A stretch of DNA of 40,098 bases from Magnetococcales bacterium WMHbinv6 (lineage in GTDB: Bacteria > Pseudomonadota > Magnetococcia > Magnetococcales > Magnetaquicoccaceae). Position numbers and translations under genes: made by a program. The stretch spans positions 1 to 40,098 of the forward strand of contig PDZV01000037.1 in the NCBI GenBank assembly GCA_002753135.1, read 5' to 3'. Below, in pieces: positions 32,379 through 39,429 of the stretch (within the stretch, counting starts at the first letter, position 1; every line of letters starts with the position of its first letter). A model generated the notes under the pieces. It did not search any database. It was not told the DNA's origin and worked only from the letters and a program-made list of their open reading frames with translations.

Positions 32379-32429
32379 GTCGTTTTGCCGTGCAAGAACG
32401 GGAATGGTGGACAACAGGCTGACAAGTCA

Positions 32430-34169
32430 ATGGACAATCGGGACATGACGCAGGTACAGACAACGCAAGCCGAGCAACAGCGGATGATTGGCGGTGGGGT
32501 TGCCGAATCCGAGTTTTATCCGGTGATGGATCGTTTGCCGACCGGAGTGTTGTTGCATCGGGAAGGAATCATCCTCTATGCCAATCCGGTCATGCTCTTC
32601 ATTTTGGGGCTGGAACGGCAGGCCGATTGTCTGCACAAGCCGTTGTTGAGTTATTTTCAGCCGGAAAGTTGGAAACGGATCGAACAGGCCGTCGAAGCGA
32701 TGGGGGCGGAGGAGGTGGGTGGCATTCCTGGCGAAATTGCGGTGCTGCGCGCCGACGACAAAGAGGCCACCCTGGAGACCATCACCTCCCTGGTGCAACT
32801 GACGGGTGGTGCGGTGTTTTGTACGGTTGCACAGGATATTTCGCAGCGAAAACAGAATGAGGAGCGTATTCGTCACCAGGCCAATTATGACAGTTTGACC
32901 GGACTGCCGAACCGCATGTTGTTCATGGATCGTTTGCAACGGGAGATTGTGCGCGCCACCCGTCAACAGAAACGGGTGGCATTGATGTTTATTGATCTGG
33001 ACCGTTTCAAATGGGTCAATGACACCTTGGGCCATGCAGCGGGTGATGATTTATTGCGCGAGGTTTCCAACCGTTTGCAGAGCAGTTTGCGTAAATCGGA
33101 TACGGTGGCGCGTATGGGTGGTGATGAATTTACCGCCATTTTGCCGGATATGGAGCGTGGACCGCACGCCGAAAGGGTTGCCAGCGGGGTGTTGGGCCAG
33201 TTGGTGACGCCGTTCATCTTGTGCGGGCAGGAGGTGATGATTTCTGGATCAATTGGTATTGCCATTTTTCCGGATGATGCGGCTTCCATGGAGGAGTTGT
33301 TGCGCAATGCCGACATCGCCATGTATCGGGCCAAAAGTGCAGGGCGCAACGGTTATCGCTTTTTCACCCCGGATATGCATGCCGAAGCCCAGCAGCGCAT
33401 GGAACTGGAAAGCGATCTGCATTATGTGCTGGAACGCAAGGAGTTGGTGATTCACTACCAACCCATCGTCGACTTGCAGAGCCGTATGGTGGTGGGGGCT
33501 GAATGTCTGTTGCGGTGGATTCATCCCAAGCGGGGGTTTATCTCCCCGGCTCTGTTCATTCCGATGGCCGAAGAGATCGGCCTGATCAGCCAGATTACCG
33601 AATGGACCATCCGTACCGCTTGTGCCCAGGCGGCACGATGGCGGCAGATGCCCGGCTGTGCAACCTTTTTTGTCTCGGTCAATCTCTCTTGTACCCGCTG
33701 CCGCGATTTGTCGGTGGGGGAAAAGATTGAGGCCATTTTCCAGGATACCGGTTTGCCAGCCAACGGCTTGGTGTTGGAAATTACTGAAAATATTCTCTCG
33801 GAAGATGCCAACCGGGCTTTGCAGATGCTCAATCAGTTGGTGCAGAGAGGGGTTGCCTTATGGTTGGATGATTTTGGCACCGGCCACTCATCGCTCAGTG
33901 TGCTGAAGCGTCTGCCAGTGAGCGGGATCAAGATTGATCGTTCTTTTGTGCCCAGCGCCCTCTCCGACCCGGAAACCATTGTTCTGGTGGAGGCCATTTT
34001 GTCCCTGGCCCGCAGTCTTAACCGGGAGGTGATCGGCGAGGGGATTGAAGCAGAGGCGCAGGCTGAGTTTTTGTTGACGCGCAGCTGTCGTTTTGGTCAG
34101 GGGTATCTCTTTCTTAAGCCGGAACCGGCGGAATTGCTCACCGCCGTGTTGGGCAAGGCACTGCGTTGA
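32430..34169 (+). CDS. PAS-GGDEF-EAL c-di-GMP turnover protein
   Basis: The 579-residue product has a PAS domain (about 28-145), a GGDEF domain with intact GGDEF at 230-234 and an RxxD inhibitory site (Arg221, Asp224) five residues before it, and a full EAL domain. The EAL signature itself reads ECL (358-360). Other catalytic positions look present: NLS near 418, EITEN at 450-454, LDDFG at 479-483, KIDRSF at 501-506 and GEGIEAEAQ near 536. The cyclase is therefore likely active and feedback-inhibited, and the phosphodiesterase possibly active. c-di-GMP would link the nearby kinases to motility or biofilm. Start choice between 32385 (TTG), 32430 (ATG) and 32445 (ATG) is uncertain since none has a strong ribosome site. 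Confidence 0.92.
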   Translation: MDNRDMTQVQTTQAEQQRMIGGGVAESEFYPVMDRLPTGVLLHREGIILYANPVMLFILGLERQADCLHKPLLSYFQPESWKRIEQAVEAMGAEEVGGIPGEIAVLRADDKEATLETITSLVQLTGGAVFCTVAQDISQRKQNEERIRHQANYDSLTGLPNRMLFMDRLQREIVRATRQQKRVALMFIDLDRFKWVNDTLGHAAGDDLLREVSNRLQSSLRKSDTVARMGGDEFTAILPDMERGPHAERVASGVLGQLVTPFILCGQEVMISGSIGIAIFPDDAASMEELLRNADIAMYRAKSAGRNGYRFFTPDMHAEAQQRMELESDLHYVLERKELVIHYQPIVDLQSRMVVGAECLLRWIHPKRGFISPALFIPMAEEIGLISQITEWTIRTACAQAARWRQMPGCATFFVSVNLSCTRCRDLSVGEKIEAIFQDTGLPANGLVLEITENILSEDANRALQMLNQLVQRGVALWLDDFGTGHSSLSVLKRLPVSGIKIDRSFVPSALSDPETIVLVEAILSLARSLNREVIGEGIEAEAQAEFLLTRSCRFGQGYLFLKPEPAELLTAVLGKALR

Positions 34170-34924: not shown

Positions 34925-36481
34925 TTATGCCTCAATCCCGTATTGCCGCAGTTTGTTGTGCAGCGATTGCCGGGTAATATCCAGCAGTTGTGCGGCCTGC
35001 AGTTTGTTGCCTTGCGTTTTGGCCAGGGCGACACGGATCAGACGAATTTCCAGCAGTTCCCGTTGTTGCGGCAGGGAGAGGGAGTCAGGCAGGGTTTCCG
35101 GCAGCAAGGCCAACCCATTATTGTTGCCTTTGTTGTTTTCTGTCGGCAGGGAGCAGTATTGTGCCGAGATGGTTTCGTTATCCTGGGTGAGGGCCACCAA
35201 CCGTTCCACTTCATGTTGCAGTTGCCGGACATTGCCGGGCCAGGTGTAGGTTTCAAAGCGGGTGAGAATTTCCGGGGAGTAGCCGAGTACCTTTTTGTTG
35301 AAGCGGCCATTGACCTCGTCGAGAAACATCATGGCCAGGGGCAGAATATCCAGCGGGCGTTCCCGCAGCGGCGGCAAAGTCAAATCGACGGAAAAGAGGC
35401 GGAAAAAGAGATCTTCGCGGAAGCGTCCTTTTTTGACCTCATCCTGCAGATTTTTGGCCGAGGCGCTGATGATGCGAAAATCGTAGCGGTGCAGGCGGTT
35501 GCCACCCAGACGCATGCCCTCCTTTTCCTGAATGGCGCGCAAAAATTTTGGTTGGATGGTCAGGGGCATTTCCGAAATTTCATCCAGGAACAGCGTGCCG
35601 CCGTTTGCCTCTTCAAAACGGCCCATGCGGCTGGAGACAGCCCCGGTGAAGGCCCCTTTTTCGTAGCCAAAAAATTCACTTTCCATCAGATTTTCCGGGA
35701 TGGCCGAACAGTTGACCGCAACGAACGGGCGGGTGCGCCGATCATTGGCCTGTTCGTGGATCATGCGGGCAATGACCTCTTTGCCGGTACCGCTCTCCCC
35801 GGTGATGAAAACATTGACCGGCAGAGAACCGATCTGGCGGACAATCTCCAGGGTTTGCCGCATGGAGGGGCTTTCGGCAATGAAGCTGTGCCGACCGGAG
35901 GCCTTGAAATCGGTGCGGGCCATCTCTTCGTGCATGTTTTTGGAGATGTTGATAATCTCCTCGGTGATAATATTATGCTCGATGGAGAGGGCCAGGTAGC
36001 GGACAACCTGCTGCAGCAAAATTTCGTCCTGTTGGGTGAAACCGTCGCTGTTGCGTTTGTTGAGAACCTGCACAGCTCCGATGCACCGTTTTTCGGCCAG
36101 GCTGAAGATGGGCACGCTGATCAGGTTGCGGGTGATAAAATCGGTTTTTTGATCACTTTGGGCATGAAAACCGCTGTGATGTTCCAGGCCGGAACCAAAG
36201 ATGGTGACGCCGTTGGCGATGGTGCGCCCGACAATGCTCCCCTCTTTGGGGGCAATAATCTCTTTTTCGCGCACACCGGTGCCGAATTTCAGCCAGACGT
36301 TGTCGGATTCGGCGCTATAAATGAAAATGCTGCACCGTTCCGCTTGTACCAGCGGGGGAAAGACCGCCACAAAAAAACGCATGAGATTTTCGTAATCGCG
36401 ATTATTCCAGGCGCGGGTGATACGGTCGAGTTGGGCCTTGAGGGTAATCAGTCGATGGCGAATGTCCGAGGTTTTAAACAT
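34925..36481 (-). CDS. GAF-AAA+-Fis sigma-54-dependent transcriptional activator
   Basis: A 518-residue enhancer-binding protein. Residues about 30-175 form a GAF domain (SIFIYSAESDNVWLKFGTGV, SVPIFSLAEKRCIGAVQVLN). The AAA+ domain (about 200-430) has Walker A GESGTGKE at 228-235, GAFTGA at 276-281, Walker B GGTLFLDE and TWPGNVRQL. A Fis-type HTH ends it (493-513: LQAAQLLDITRQSLHNKLRQ). It has no receiver, so it is controlled by a ligand or partner at GAF, as in NorR- or NifA-type activators. It begins 10 bp after the InsA-like gene and lies opposite a sigma-54-promoted flagellin-like gene, its most likely target. The GAF ligand is unknown. Confidence 0.93.
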   Translation of the reverse strand: MFKTSDIRHRLITLKAQLDRITRAWNNRDYENLMRFFVAVFPPLVQAERCSIFIYSAESDNVWLKFGTGVREKEIIAPKEGSIVGRTIANGVTIFGSGLEHHSGFHAQSDQKTDFITRNLISVPIFSLAEKRCIGAVQVLNKRNSDGFTQQDEILLQQVVRYLALSIEHNIITEEIINISKNMHEEMARTDFKASGRHSFIAESPSMRQTLEIVRQIGSLPVNVFITGESGTGKEVIARMIHEQANDRRTRPFVAVNCSAIPENLMESEFFGYEKGAFTGAVSSRMGRFEEANGGTLFLDEISEMPLTIQPKFLRAIQEKEGMRLGGNRLHRYDFRIISASAKNLQDEVKKGRFREDLFFRLFSVDLTLPPLRERPLDILPLAMMFLDEVNGRFNKKVLGYSPEILTRFETYTWPGNVRQLQHEVERLVALTQDNETISAQYCSLPTENNKGNNNGLALLPETLPDSLSLPQQRELLEIRLIRVALAKTQGNKLQAAQLLDITRQSLHNKLRQYGIEA

Positions 36482-36490
36482 GGAGGCCGT

Positions 36491-36832
36491 TTAACCCGCC
36501 ATCGCCTGGGGACGGACAAGCCGCTTGCTGCTGCGCAATGGTTTGGCGGGTAACGAAAAACGGGAGAGCATCTGAAACACTTCCAACACGGTTTGCTGGG
36601 GCAGGTTGAGAAGGCGGGCCGTCTCTTCCACATTGGCCCCTTCCAGGGCCAGATCGATAATCTGCCGCCGGGCGGCAGCCGAAGAGGCTCTGCTGCGATA
36701 GTTGAGCAGGAAGACGCGCCGTGTGCAGGAGGGATTCTGACAGATGAAGCGTTGGGCACCATTGGGTTGCCGACCATATTTGACCACATTCAAGCTGTCA
36801 CAATCCGGACAGCGCACTTCGACCACAGCCAT
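36491..36832 (-). CDS. Stand-alone IS1 InsA-like zinc-finger/HTH protein
   Basis: A 113-residue protein aligning by eye with IS1 InsA over most of its length: VRCPDCDSLNVVKYGRQPNG, RFICQNPSC, then SRASSAAARRQIIDLALEG and VEETARLLNLPQQTVLEVF. Four cysteines (8, 11, 31, 36) make a probable zinc site; residues about 55-88 form the HTH. InsA binds IS1 ends and represses transposition. Here no insB and no IS inverted repeats are seen, and a basic C-terminal tail of about 20 residues is added, so it is probably a domesticated DNA-binding protein rather than a live element. AAGGAG lies 10 bases before the ATG. Its stop is 10 bp from the sigma-54 activator start, implying one transcript. Confidence 0.75.
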   Translation of the reverse strand: MAVVEVRCPDCDSLNVVKYGRQPNGAQRFICQNPSCTRRVFLLNYRSRASSAAARRQIIDLALEGANVEETARLLNLPQQTVLEVFQMLSRFSLPAKPLRSSKRLVRPQAMAG

Positions 36833-37095: not shown

Positions 37096-37111
37096 TTGGA
37101 ATGCAAGTTGC
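37096..37111 (+). promoter_or_regulatory. Sigma-54 promoter of the flagellin-like gene
   Basis: TTGGAATGCAAGTTGC: GG and GC 10 bases apart with a TTGC -12 half. Predicted start near 37123, giving a leader of about 80 bases before the ATG at 37204. Confidence 0.7.
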
Positions 37112-37203: not shown

Positions 37204-38040
37204 ATGGCAAACATACTCTCTGCGGTTTCCGGTTTGTCGAACTTGGTCAATGCAGTGGTATTGGATCCTTCGCTGGTGGCGTTGAAGGATAATCTCAACC
37301 AAACCACCGCCGTTGCGGAGGGGTATCGGGTTGATCTGGCGCAGGAAGAGGGGGCAGGCGGGCGGACGGAGGCTTCCCAGCTTTCGTTGGCGGGTCGGCT
37401 GTCGCTGGATCTGCAGGCCTTGAATCAGGCGACCCTGCAGGCCAATGACGGCGTGGCGATGGCGCAGATTGCCGGTGCCTCCCTGAATGATATTCATGCC
37501 GATTTGCAACAGATGCAGAAGCTGGTACAGGCCAGTCGCAACGGCACCTTGAGCGAAGCCGATCGCCAATCGCTGCAGGCGGAAGCGAAAAAGCTGCAGG
37601 AGTCCATCGATCAAAAAATTCATTCGGCACACTATCTGGATATTCCCTTGTTGGCGACGACAAGGGCGATGTTGTTGCAGGCAGGGATCGAGAGCGGCAA
37701 CCAAAACAGCATTGTCTTGAAGGATGTGGCGCAGGCGCTGACACCGGTGGATGTGGGCAATGCCGCCTCTGCCGAAGCGGCAGAGAGTTCGTTGGTCAAA
37801 GATCTGGCCATGGTGGAGGGTCTGCAACGGCAAATGGTTGGCAAACAAGGGGAGTTTGGCAAAGCGATCGATGCCTTGTCGGCCTGGTCGGCAACACGCA
37901 CCGGAGCCCGGCAGATTGACAGCGATCAGGCTGCCAGTGCAGCGGCCAGCCGGATTGCCGGTCTGATTCGTGGCAATGCCGCCATGGCGTTCAATGTGCA
38001 GGCCAATCAGTCGCCGGCGCGGGTGGCTCATTTGGTCTGA
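37204..38040 (+). CDS. Divergent flagellin-like protein
   Basis: The 278-residue product is flagellin-like in two places. Residues about 81-138 (NDGVAMAQIAGASLNDIHAD, then LQQMQKLVQASRNGTLSEAD and RQSLQAEAKKLQESID) match the D1 helix region of flagellins. The last 50 residues (ATRTGARQIDSDQAASAAAS...VQANQSPARVAHLV) resemble the C-terminal D0/D1 helix, which in flagellins ends QANQxPxxVLxLL. The first 45 residues do not show the usual N-terminal D0 sequence, and the middle domain is short, so normal filament assembly is doubtful. AGGAG lies 7 bases before the ATG at 37204; an ATG at 37177 is less likely. A sigma-54 promoter precedes it and a hairpin follows. It may be a minor filament component, an adaptor, or a regulator of export. 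Confidence 0.75.
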   Translation: MANILSAVSGLSNLVNAVVLDPSLVALKDNLNQTTAVAEGYRVDLAQEEGAGGRTEASQLSLAGRLSLDLQALNQATLQANDGVAMAQIAGASLNDIHADLQQMQKLVQASRNGTLSEADRQSLQAEAKKLQESIDQKIHSAHYLDIPLLATTRAMLLQAGIESGNQNSIVLKDVAQALTPVDVGNAASAEAAESSLVKDLAMVEGLQRQMVGKQGEFGKAIDALSAWSATRTGARQIDSDQAASAAASRIAGLIRGNAAMAFNVQANQSPARVAHLV

Positions 38041-38130: not shown

Positions 38131-39429
38131 ATGAATCAACTTTTTTTTGCACTGATCCTGATGGGTTTTTTGGCGACCGGCTGGCAGCAGTGGCAGTGGT
38201 TGCCAGAGGGTAACGCTCTGTCGCCAATGCAGATATTGAGCAAAGGGATGATGGATGCCGCCGCTTCTTCGGTTACGCTGGCTCTTGGTTTGATCGGCAG
38301 CATGGCCCTGTTTTTGGGGGTGATGAAGGTGGCCGAGCGGGGTGGTTTGTTGACCATTCTGGCCCGTTTGATCCGCCCGTTGATGGTTCGCCTCTTTCCT
38401 GAAGTGCCAGCCGAACATCCGGCCATGGGGGCGATGATTCTCAATCTGGCTGCCAATGCCTTGGGGTTGGGCAATGCGGCCACCCCTTTTGGTATTCGTG
38501 CCATGCACGAGTTGAATCGTCTCAATCCGCTGCCAGGGACGGCCAGCAACGCCATGGCCCTGTTTTTGGCGCTCAATACCGCCAGCATTACCCTGGTACC
38601 GAGCAGTGTCATTGCCGTTCGTGCCGCCTTGGGTTCACGAGAGCCGGCAGCCATTCTGGCCACCACCCTGTTTGCCACCCTGTGTGCGACGGTCGCTGCG
38701 GTCGTGGCTGCGCGATTTTTCCAACGTTGGGCCACCCCCCAGCCGGCTGGTGTGGCAGAAAACCGTGGCGATGAACCGGCAGCAGCAGAAGAGGCTAACA
38801 GCCTGTTGCCGGAGATTGCCGCTGGCTATCCTGCCTGGGTCTCTTTTTTGGCGATGGTGCTGTTGCTGGCTTTTGTGCCGTTGACCATTTTTTATGGCAA
38901 AGGGTTTGCGGTATGGGTGTTGCCGGGGTTGGTGGTCACTTTTCTCGGCTTTGGTGTCTGGCGTGGGGTGCGGGTTTATGAAGTGTTTGTCGAAGGGGCG
39001 AGAGAAGGGTTTGAGACGGCGGTGCGGATCATTCCCTATCTGGTGGCCATTCTGGTTGCGGTCGGCATGTTTCGCAGCAGTGGGGCGATGGAGGTGCTGG
39101 TACAGCTGTTGGCACCGCTGACCACCCCTTTGGGCTTGCCTGCCGAAGCGTTGCCGATGGCCTTGCTGCGCCCATTTTCCGGTTCCGGTGCCTATGGCCT
39201 GATGACCGCCATCATGCAGGATCCGGCTATTGGTCCAGACAGTTATGTCGGCATTCTGGTCAGCACCATACAGGGATCCACCGAGACGACCTTTTATGTC
39301 CTGGCGGTCTATTTGGGGGCGGTACAGGTGCAGCGCATGCGTCATACCCTGGCGGCGGCGCTAACCGCTGATCTGGCCGGACTGGCGGCGGCAGTCTGGA
39401 TCTGTACGATGTTGTTCGGAGATCGTTGA
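38131..39429 (+). CDS. SpmA-SpmB fusion membrane protein (nucleoside-recognition/Gate domains)
   Basis: The 432-residue protein has two homologous membrane halves. The first (about 1-195) is SpmA-like, with MILNLAANALGLGNAATPFG, IRAMHELNRLNPLPGTASN and LFLALNTASITLVPSSVIAV. The second (about 235-430) is SpmB-like, with GAREGFETAVRIIPYLVAIL and LPMALLRPFSGSGAYGLM. In Bacillus spmA and spmB act in spore core dehydration; in non-sporulating bacteria this fusion is widespread and its function is unknown, probably transport or gating of a small molecule. A linker rich in Glu and Ala joins the halves. The start (ATG at 38131) lies 18 bp after the hairpin, so it may have a short leader or partly rely on read-through. 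It overlaps the next start by one base. Confidence 0.88.
   Translation: MNQLFFALILMGFLATGWQQWQWLPEGNALSPMQILSKGMMDAAASSVTLALGLIGSMALFLGVMKVAERGGLLTILARLIRPLMVRLFPEVPAEHPAMGAMILNLAANALGLGNAATPFGIRAMHELNRLNPLPGTASNAMALFLALNTASITLVPSSVIAVRAALGSREPAAILATTLFATLCATVAAVVAARFFQRWATPQPAGVAENRGDEPAAAEEANSLLPEIAAGYPAWVSFLAMVLLLAFVPLTIFYGKGFAVWVLPGLVVTFLGFGVWRGVRVYEVFVEGAREGFETAVRIIPYLVAILVAVGMFRSSGAMEVLVQLLAPLTTPLGLPAEALPMALLRPFSGSGAYGLMTAIMQDPAIGPDSYVGILVSTIQGSTETTFYVLAVYLGAVQVQRMRHTLAAALTADLAGLAAAVWICTMLFGDR

Follow-up and report, generated by a model that had tools for sequence, protein, structure and literature searches.

A solo flagellin lineage of the Magnetococcales with altered filament-core segments: a possible regulatory paralog, often encoded beside a diguanylate cyclase

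It is not settled why many bacteria have several flagellin genes; in other bacteria flagellins are bound by a regulator, FliW. According to a report on Caulobacter crescentus, FljJ cannot build a filament by itself and, until its export, governs how the other flagellins are translated (PMC7591256), and the Vibrio proteins FlaE and FlaF are flagellin homologs of the biofilm matrix (PMC6692518). The cocci MO-1 and MC-1, related to the organism considered here, have sheathed flagellar bundles (PMC7175107). The literature we searched held no publication on the flagellin lineage described below, and one may exist.

The window, a stretch of 40,098 nucleotides from Magnetococcales bacterium WMHbinv6, carries at 37204-38040 on the forward strand a real gene for a solo flagellin-family protein of 278 residues plus stop, whose ATG at 37204 is preceded by AAGGAG and whose MAN or MAT start is common to all seven genomes of the window's genus. 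Pfam Flagellin_N matches residues 53-151 with a score of 44.9 bits against a cut-off of 26.6 (E 1.6e-11), placing the protein in the flagellin family. A search for a full canonical flagellin N-domain thus recovered only positions 37-135 of the 139 in this profile, and its D0 part is left unmatched. Flagellin_C is not matched at E<=10, homology to this region emerging only by profile-profile comparison. The PDB sequence search returned flagellins throughout and the NCBIfam matches are likewise flagellins. The earlier note on this DNA had seen a resemblance to flagellin in the D1-like region, and this is borne out by the AlphaFold model, in which D1 (ND1, distal hairpin segment and CD1, residues 56-239, 37369-37920, forward strand) is mostly above pLDDT 85. 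Compared with known structures the model matches flagellins, with Z ~20 over residues 56-242 and an rmsd of ~2 over 167-187 superposed residues, as expected of a predicted flagellin D1 fold. What the note took for an unusually short central domain is of ordinary length in this order, where canonical flagellins mostly have 270-282 residues, and some 320 to more than 700.

The same note had the normal N-terminal D0 segment missing, and here its reading holds in part. Residues 1-62, the strongly altered ND0 and spoke segment (37204-37389, forward strand), have no profile match when taken alone (3.5 bits with the profile of the lineage, 3.8 with the canonical profile), and the corresponding part of the congeners L050-L053 reaches 10.8-17.6 bits. 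These congeners have KLSGG, RLSGG or RLAGG where canonical flagellins carry RLSSG. The window protein has a three-residue insertion at this position and about seven extra residues in the spoke loop that follows, no RLSSG or INTN motif is recognisable in it, and it keeps 5 of 12 near-invariant residues in ND0 and 3 of 9 in the spoke, where the N and D residues of a recognisable canonical segment would be expected. By hhalign the genus profile pairs columns 1-276 with 1-275 of canonical flagellins (probability 99.9, E 2.7e-31), a coverage partly imposed by the global mode of alignment. Because the congener motifs bridge the gap and the alignment runs end to end at this E value, the D0 segment is taken to be present though strongly altered; divergent yet homologous, it makes 'lacks D0' too strong a description. 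Indeed, D0 is only moderately altered in several other lineage members, e.g. RLSAGLRINSAADDAAG in L064. Structure prediction with superposition, which the note had proposed, modelled residues 1-62 poorly (pLDDT below 50, and 30-43 over residues 1-60), with a proline and a broken helix in ND0 and the C-terminal helix interrupted at 235-240, whereas in a canonical flagellin from this genome, modelled at matched depth (28 sequences for each protein), the ND0 helix (2-33) and the C-terminal helix (179-271) both run without a break. In the two models D1 is predicted with confidence; for monomers, the confidence given to D0 carries little weight.

Among the 100 relatives searched, all genomes of the genus have an ortholog at 43-73% identity, full length save for one cut by a contig end and one matching from residue 19, and elsewhere in the Magnetococcales relatives are found at 24-36% identity; a contig search with the window protein alone returned a single relative, from the uncultivated Magnetococcales bacterium YD0425bin7. 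In trees the solo flagellins form one group separate from canonical flagellins (support 96/92 in the careful tree), within which the window's genus sits on a long branch, in a set of 17 supported at 100/98; by the AU test, placing the genus alongside the canonical flagellins is not rejected (p 0.25). Region profiles separate the lineage more clearly than the trees. The distal D1 segment (residues 153-183, 37660-37752, forward strand), with the conserved signature LQtG...Q...L.D.s.a.tpvD, reaches 30-48 bits against the profile of the lineage in all seven genus proteins, where the canonical profile gives no more than 8.6 (30.2 against 8.5 in the window protein, the segment being taken to canonical position 190), and the CD0-like tail (residues 240-278, 37921-38037, forward strand) scores 26.4 against 9.0 bits. 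At the level of sequence these comparisons assign the window protein to a separate solo flagellin lineage that spans the order. Relative to the identity among canonical flagellins of the order, that within the lineage is 0.45 in ND0, 0.46 in the spoke and 0.48 in CD0, rising through 54% in CD1, 67% in upper ND1 and 87% in lower ND1 to 103% in distal D1. By this measure the filament-core parts are relaxed most, and D1 at its exposed end is as well conserved as in canonical flagellins.

Motif loss and a long branch would also fit a decaying, non-functional flagellin copy. Throughout the order, and in each of the seven genomes of the genus, the gene is retained with an intact reading frame, its promoter site is conserved, and dN/dS is low throughout at 0.12-0.18, the N-terminal part included, with synonymous sites near saturation. 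These ratios establish purifying selection on the coding sequence, a pseudogene is disfavoured by the intact frames and this selection, and decay is left a very remote prospect. Equally improbable is a hook-filament junction, cap or linker protein akin to FlgL, the cap or link role raised in the earlier note. Flagellin_N is a family shared with FlgL, but the FlgL models do not match the window protein, its NCBIfam and structural matches are to flagellins, its C-terminal 40 residues match the solo lineage, and FlgK, the FlgL candidate and FliD are encoded on another contig, C68. The window genome has nine Flagellin_N matches, the window protein included, of which two are on C55, three on C68 (one being the FlgL candidate) and one each on C24, C2 and C31; the window gene stands outside the flagellin clusters.

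Other flagellar genes were noticed in passing. The order on C68 (L078:4029-13839) is FlgK, FlgL, FliW, flagellin, FliW, flagellin, then FliD, each FliW gene immediately preceding one for a flagellin (of 667 and 322 residues), which suggests, from gene order, that these are paired regulators. The match on C31 (L081:7060-7884) begins at Flagellin_N profile position 54, keeps Flagellin_C and falls outside the solo lineage. In several Magnetococcales, G027 among them, each flagellin array (L087:2972-3820, the L086 and L084 arrays, and L085:6679-7494) contains one extremely divergent flagellin; with end branches of 1.0-1.8 these group together, perhaps through long-branch attraction.

Outside the window's genus, a co-directional gene for a diguanylate cyclase lies downstream of the solo flagellin gene, within 3.5 kb. 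Its product of ~340 residues has a GGDEF domain with intact GGDEF motif and RxxD inhibition site, and is ~50-60% identical over its length between families. The pair occurs in 20 genomes of seven families (G008, G013, G018, G021, G027, G028, G029, G032 to G040, G042, G044, G046 and G047), which are related and so not independent. It is inverted in G019, is interrupted by a gene for an EAL domain in G027 and for a GGDEF-EAL protein in G034, and has its two members present yet apart in G001, G002, G022, G024, G025 and G030. Since other neighbours of the solo gene are common almost only within families, the pairing is not mere general synteny. Of 47 other Magnetococcales, 40 have the cyclase, almost always in single copy, and at E<=1e-55 none of the remaining genomes in a phylum sample of 398 does; several sister-genus genomes carry it with no solo flagellin detectable beside it. 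In the window's genus, G000 and G003-G006 have no such cyclase and in G001 and G002 it is unlinked, and the adjacent orthologous cyclase typical outside the genus is absent from the window genome, where a c-di-GMP link therefore cannot hold in paired form. In the lineage as a whole such a link is suggested by gene order.

The ~170 N-terminal residues of the cyclase family (L061, L066, L074, L082 and others) match no Pfam family and contain a conserved Cys/His motif of the CSCHGPHRQ type, and may sense metal, heme or redox state. In G008 and G013 (L074, L083) the solo flagellin gene is flanked by the cyclase on one side and a gene for a hybrid histidine kinase on the other, and in sister genomes the hybrid kinase is directly 5' of the cyclase with no flagellin, a natural with/without comparison. 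SBP_bac_3 hybrid kinases beside the gene in G002/G003 and G027 were rejected as a conserved partner because they align only in their kinase parts.

As c-di-GMP enzymes commonly control biofilm matrix, the pairing would also fit a flagellin homolog that is secreted, stays unassembled and has an extracellular role, in the manner of Vibrio FlaE/FlaF or Campylobacter FlaC, which retain D1 yet do not assemble (PMC6692518, PMC4863622). FlaC has been recorded only in species with unsheathed flagella (PMC4863622), in contrast to the sheathed MO-1 and MC-1 (PMC7175107), and we regard this explanation as rather unlikely.

Within the genus the gene has another setting. A sigma-54-type -24/-12 promoter site, TTGGAATGCAAGTTGC (37096-37111, forward strand), the only such match in the window, lies 93-108 bases ahead of the ATG. 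Across the seven genomes the site is placed 98-119 bases ahead of the start, and 12 of its 16 columns are invariant, compared with 4 of 120 in the flanks. As the match in single sequences is modestly unusual (shuffle fraction ~0.01-0.1), it is this seven-genome footprint that carries the assignment. RpoN is encoded in the window genome, and the gene appears, from these sequence features, to be expressed under sigma-54 in the genus. A GAF-AAA-Fis sigma-54-dependent activator identified by Pfam (34925-36481, reverse strand) is a neighbour in all seven genomes at 79-91% identity and may act on this promoter. Between the activator and the solo gene is a divergent, conserved neighbour, a small zinc-ribbon/HTH protein with IS1 InsA-like domains (36491-36832, reverse strand), 66-79% identical within the genus, always beside the activator and perhaps a domesticated transposase regulator. 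Downstream, in part of the genus, is a Gate-domain (nucleoside recognition) membrane protein (38131-39429, forward strand) to which we assign no role. A GGDEF-EAL protein 3 kb upstream (32385-34169), present likewise in L048, differs in family from the paired cyclase. Matches to an E. coli-type sigma-28 site (12-13 of 16) occur in six lineage members from beyond the genus, but the canonical flagellins scanned in G000 and G027 score at most 11, and we therefore make no claim of sigma-28 control over the whole lineage.

Expression of this kind is compatible with a minor structural flagellin, exported and placed in the filament at a low level or at a special site, e.g. adjacent to the hook, where a divergent D0 is tolerated. 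Sigma-54-driven early flagellins and a hook-proximal FljJ are known from the Caulobacter report (PMC7591256), profile alignment gives a full-length, colinear flagellin, and all 14 MO-1 flagellins, which may include a solo ortholog, have been reported in filaments (PMC7175107). However, conservation is lost chiefly in the parts that build the filament core, RLSSG and INTN cannot be recognised, the ND0 helix is broken, with a proline, and the gene context in relatives is one of signalling. We consider a minor structural role a real but improbable alternative.

The protein is altered, conserved across the order and usually beside a predicted c-di-GMP enzyme, and an accessory or regulatory part is thus likelier for it than that of a normal building block. 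That the solo flagellin is an accessory and most likely regulatory paralog, and not a main filament subunit, seems to us about evenly poised between right and wrong. The suggestion in the earlier note that it may not form ordinary filaments and might regulate gains indirect support from the selective loss of D0 and spoke conservation, the collapse of AlphaFold confidence there relative to the control, the position outside the flagellin clusters and the relatives beside c-di-GMP enzymes. We infer its regulatory role, export, partners and direction of signalling as follows. The protein retains a flagellin D1 body and a flagellin-type tail, but the conserved D0 core, by which ordinary filaments are packed, has been lost. 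Made during flagellum building, it would engage the flagellar export and chaperone system, FliW (present twice in the window genome) and FliS being obvious candidates, and would report the state of assembly or secretion to regulation, much as FljJ secretion is coupled to translation control; FljJ is the closest precedent, followed by the secreted homologs of Vibrio and Campylobacter. For most of the order c-di-GMP would serve as readout; in the window's genus, with the cyclase lost or unlinked, expression would lie under sigma-54. More speculatively, and in our view doubtful as a whole, a flagellin would have become a dedicated signalling protein throughout the Magnetococcales, a non-filament flagellin which with its cognate diguanylate cyclase (and a phosphodiesterase in some) would tie assembly or export state to c-di-GMP, the window's genus having been rewired to sigma-54. 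The lineage of its own, the distal signature, the decayed filament-core parts and the conserved c-di-GMP gene partner make a non-structural role directly testable, and such a role might provide a physical link between flagellum building and c-di-GMP.

Compared with canonical FliC, e.g. L077:7411-8226 of the same genome, the solo protein is alike in length, colinear domains and D1 fold, and differs in its lost or altered D0 and spoke motifs, its distal D1 signature, its separate lineage, its place outside any flagellin cluster and its sigma-54-type promoter site. With Vibrio FlaE/FlaF and Campylobacter FlaC it would share the condition of a flagellin homolog not needed for the filament (PMC6692518, PMC4863622), and like FlaC it is without most of D2/D3 (PMC4863622). 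Unlike these it represents an order-wide lineage of aquatic bacteria in a signalling gene context, with secretion putative. The FljJ/FlbT system as such was rejected, since FlbT, the partner of FljJ, was not found in the window genome at E<=1. Like FljJ, the solo flagellin is a single divergent paralog, its expression probably separate from that of the main flagellins. With 49% identity to its sister flagellins, FljJ has diverged far less than the solo protein, and the excerpted text describes no cyclase link for it (PMC7591256). If our reading is correct, the solo flagellins would join FljJ as regulatory flagellins of a second kind.
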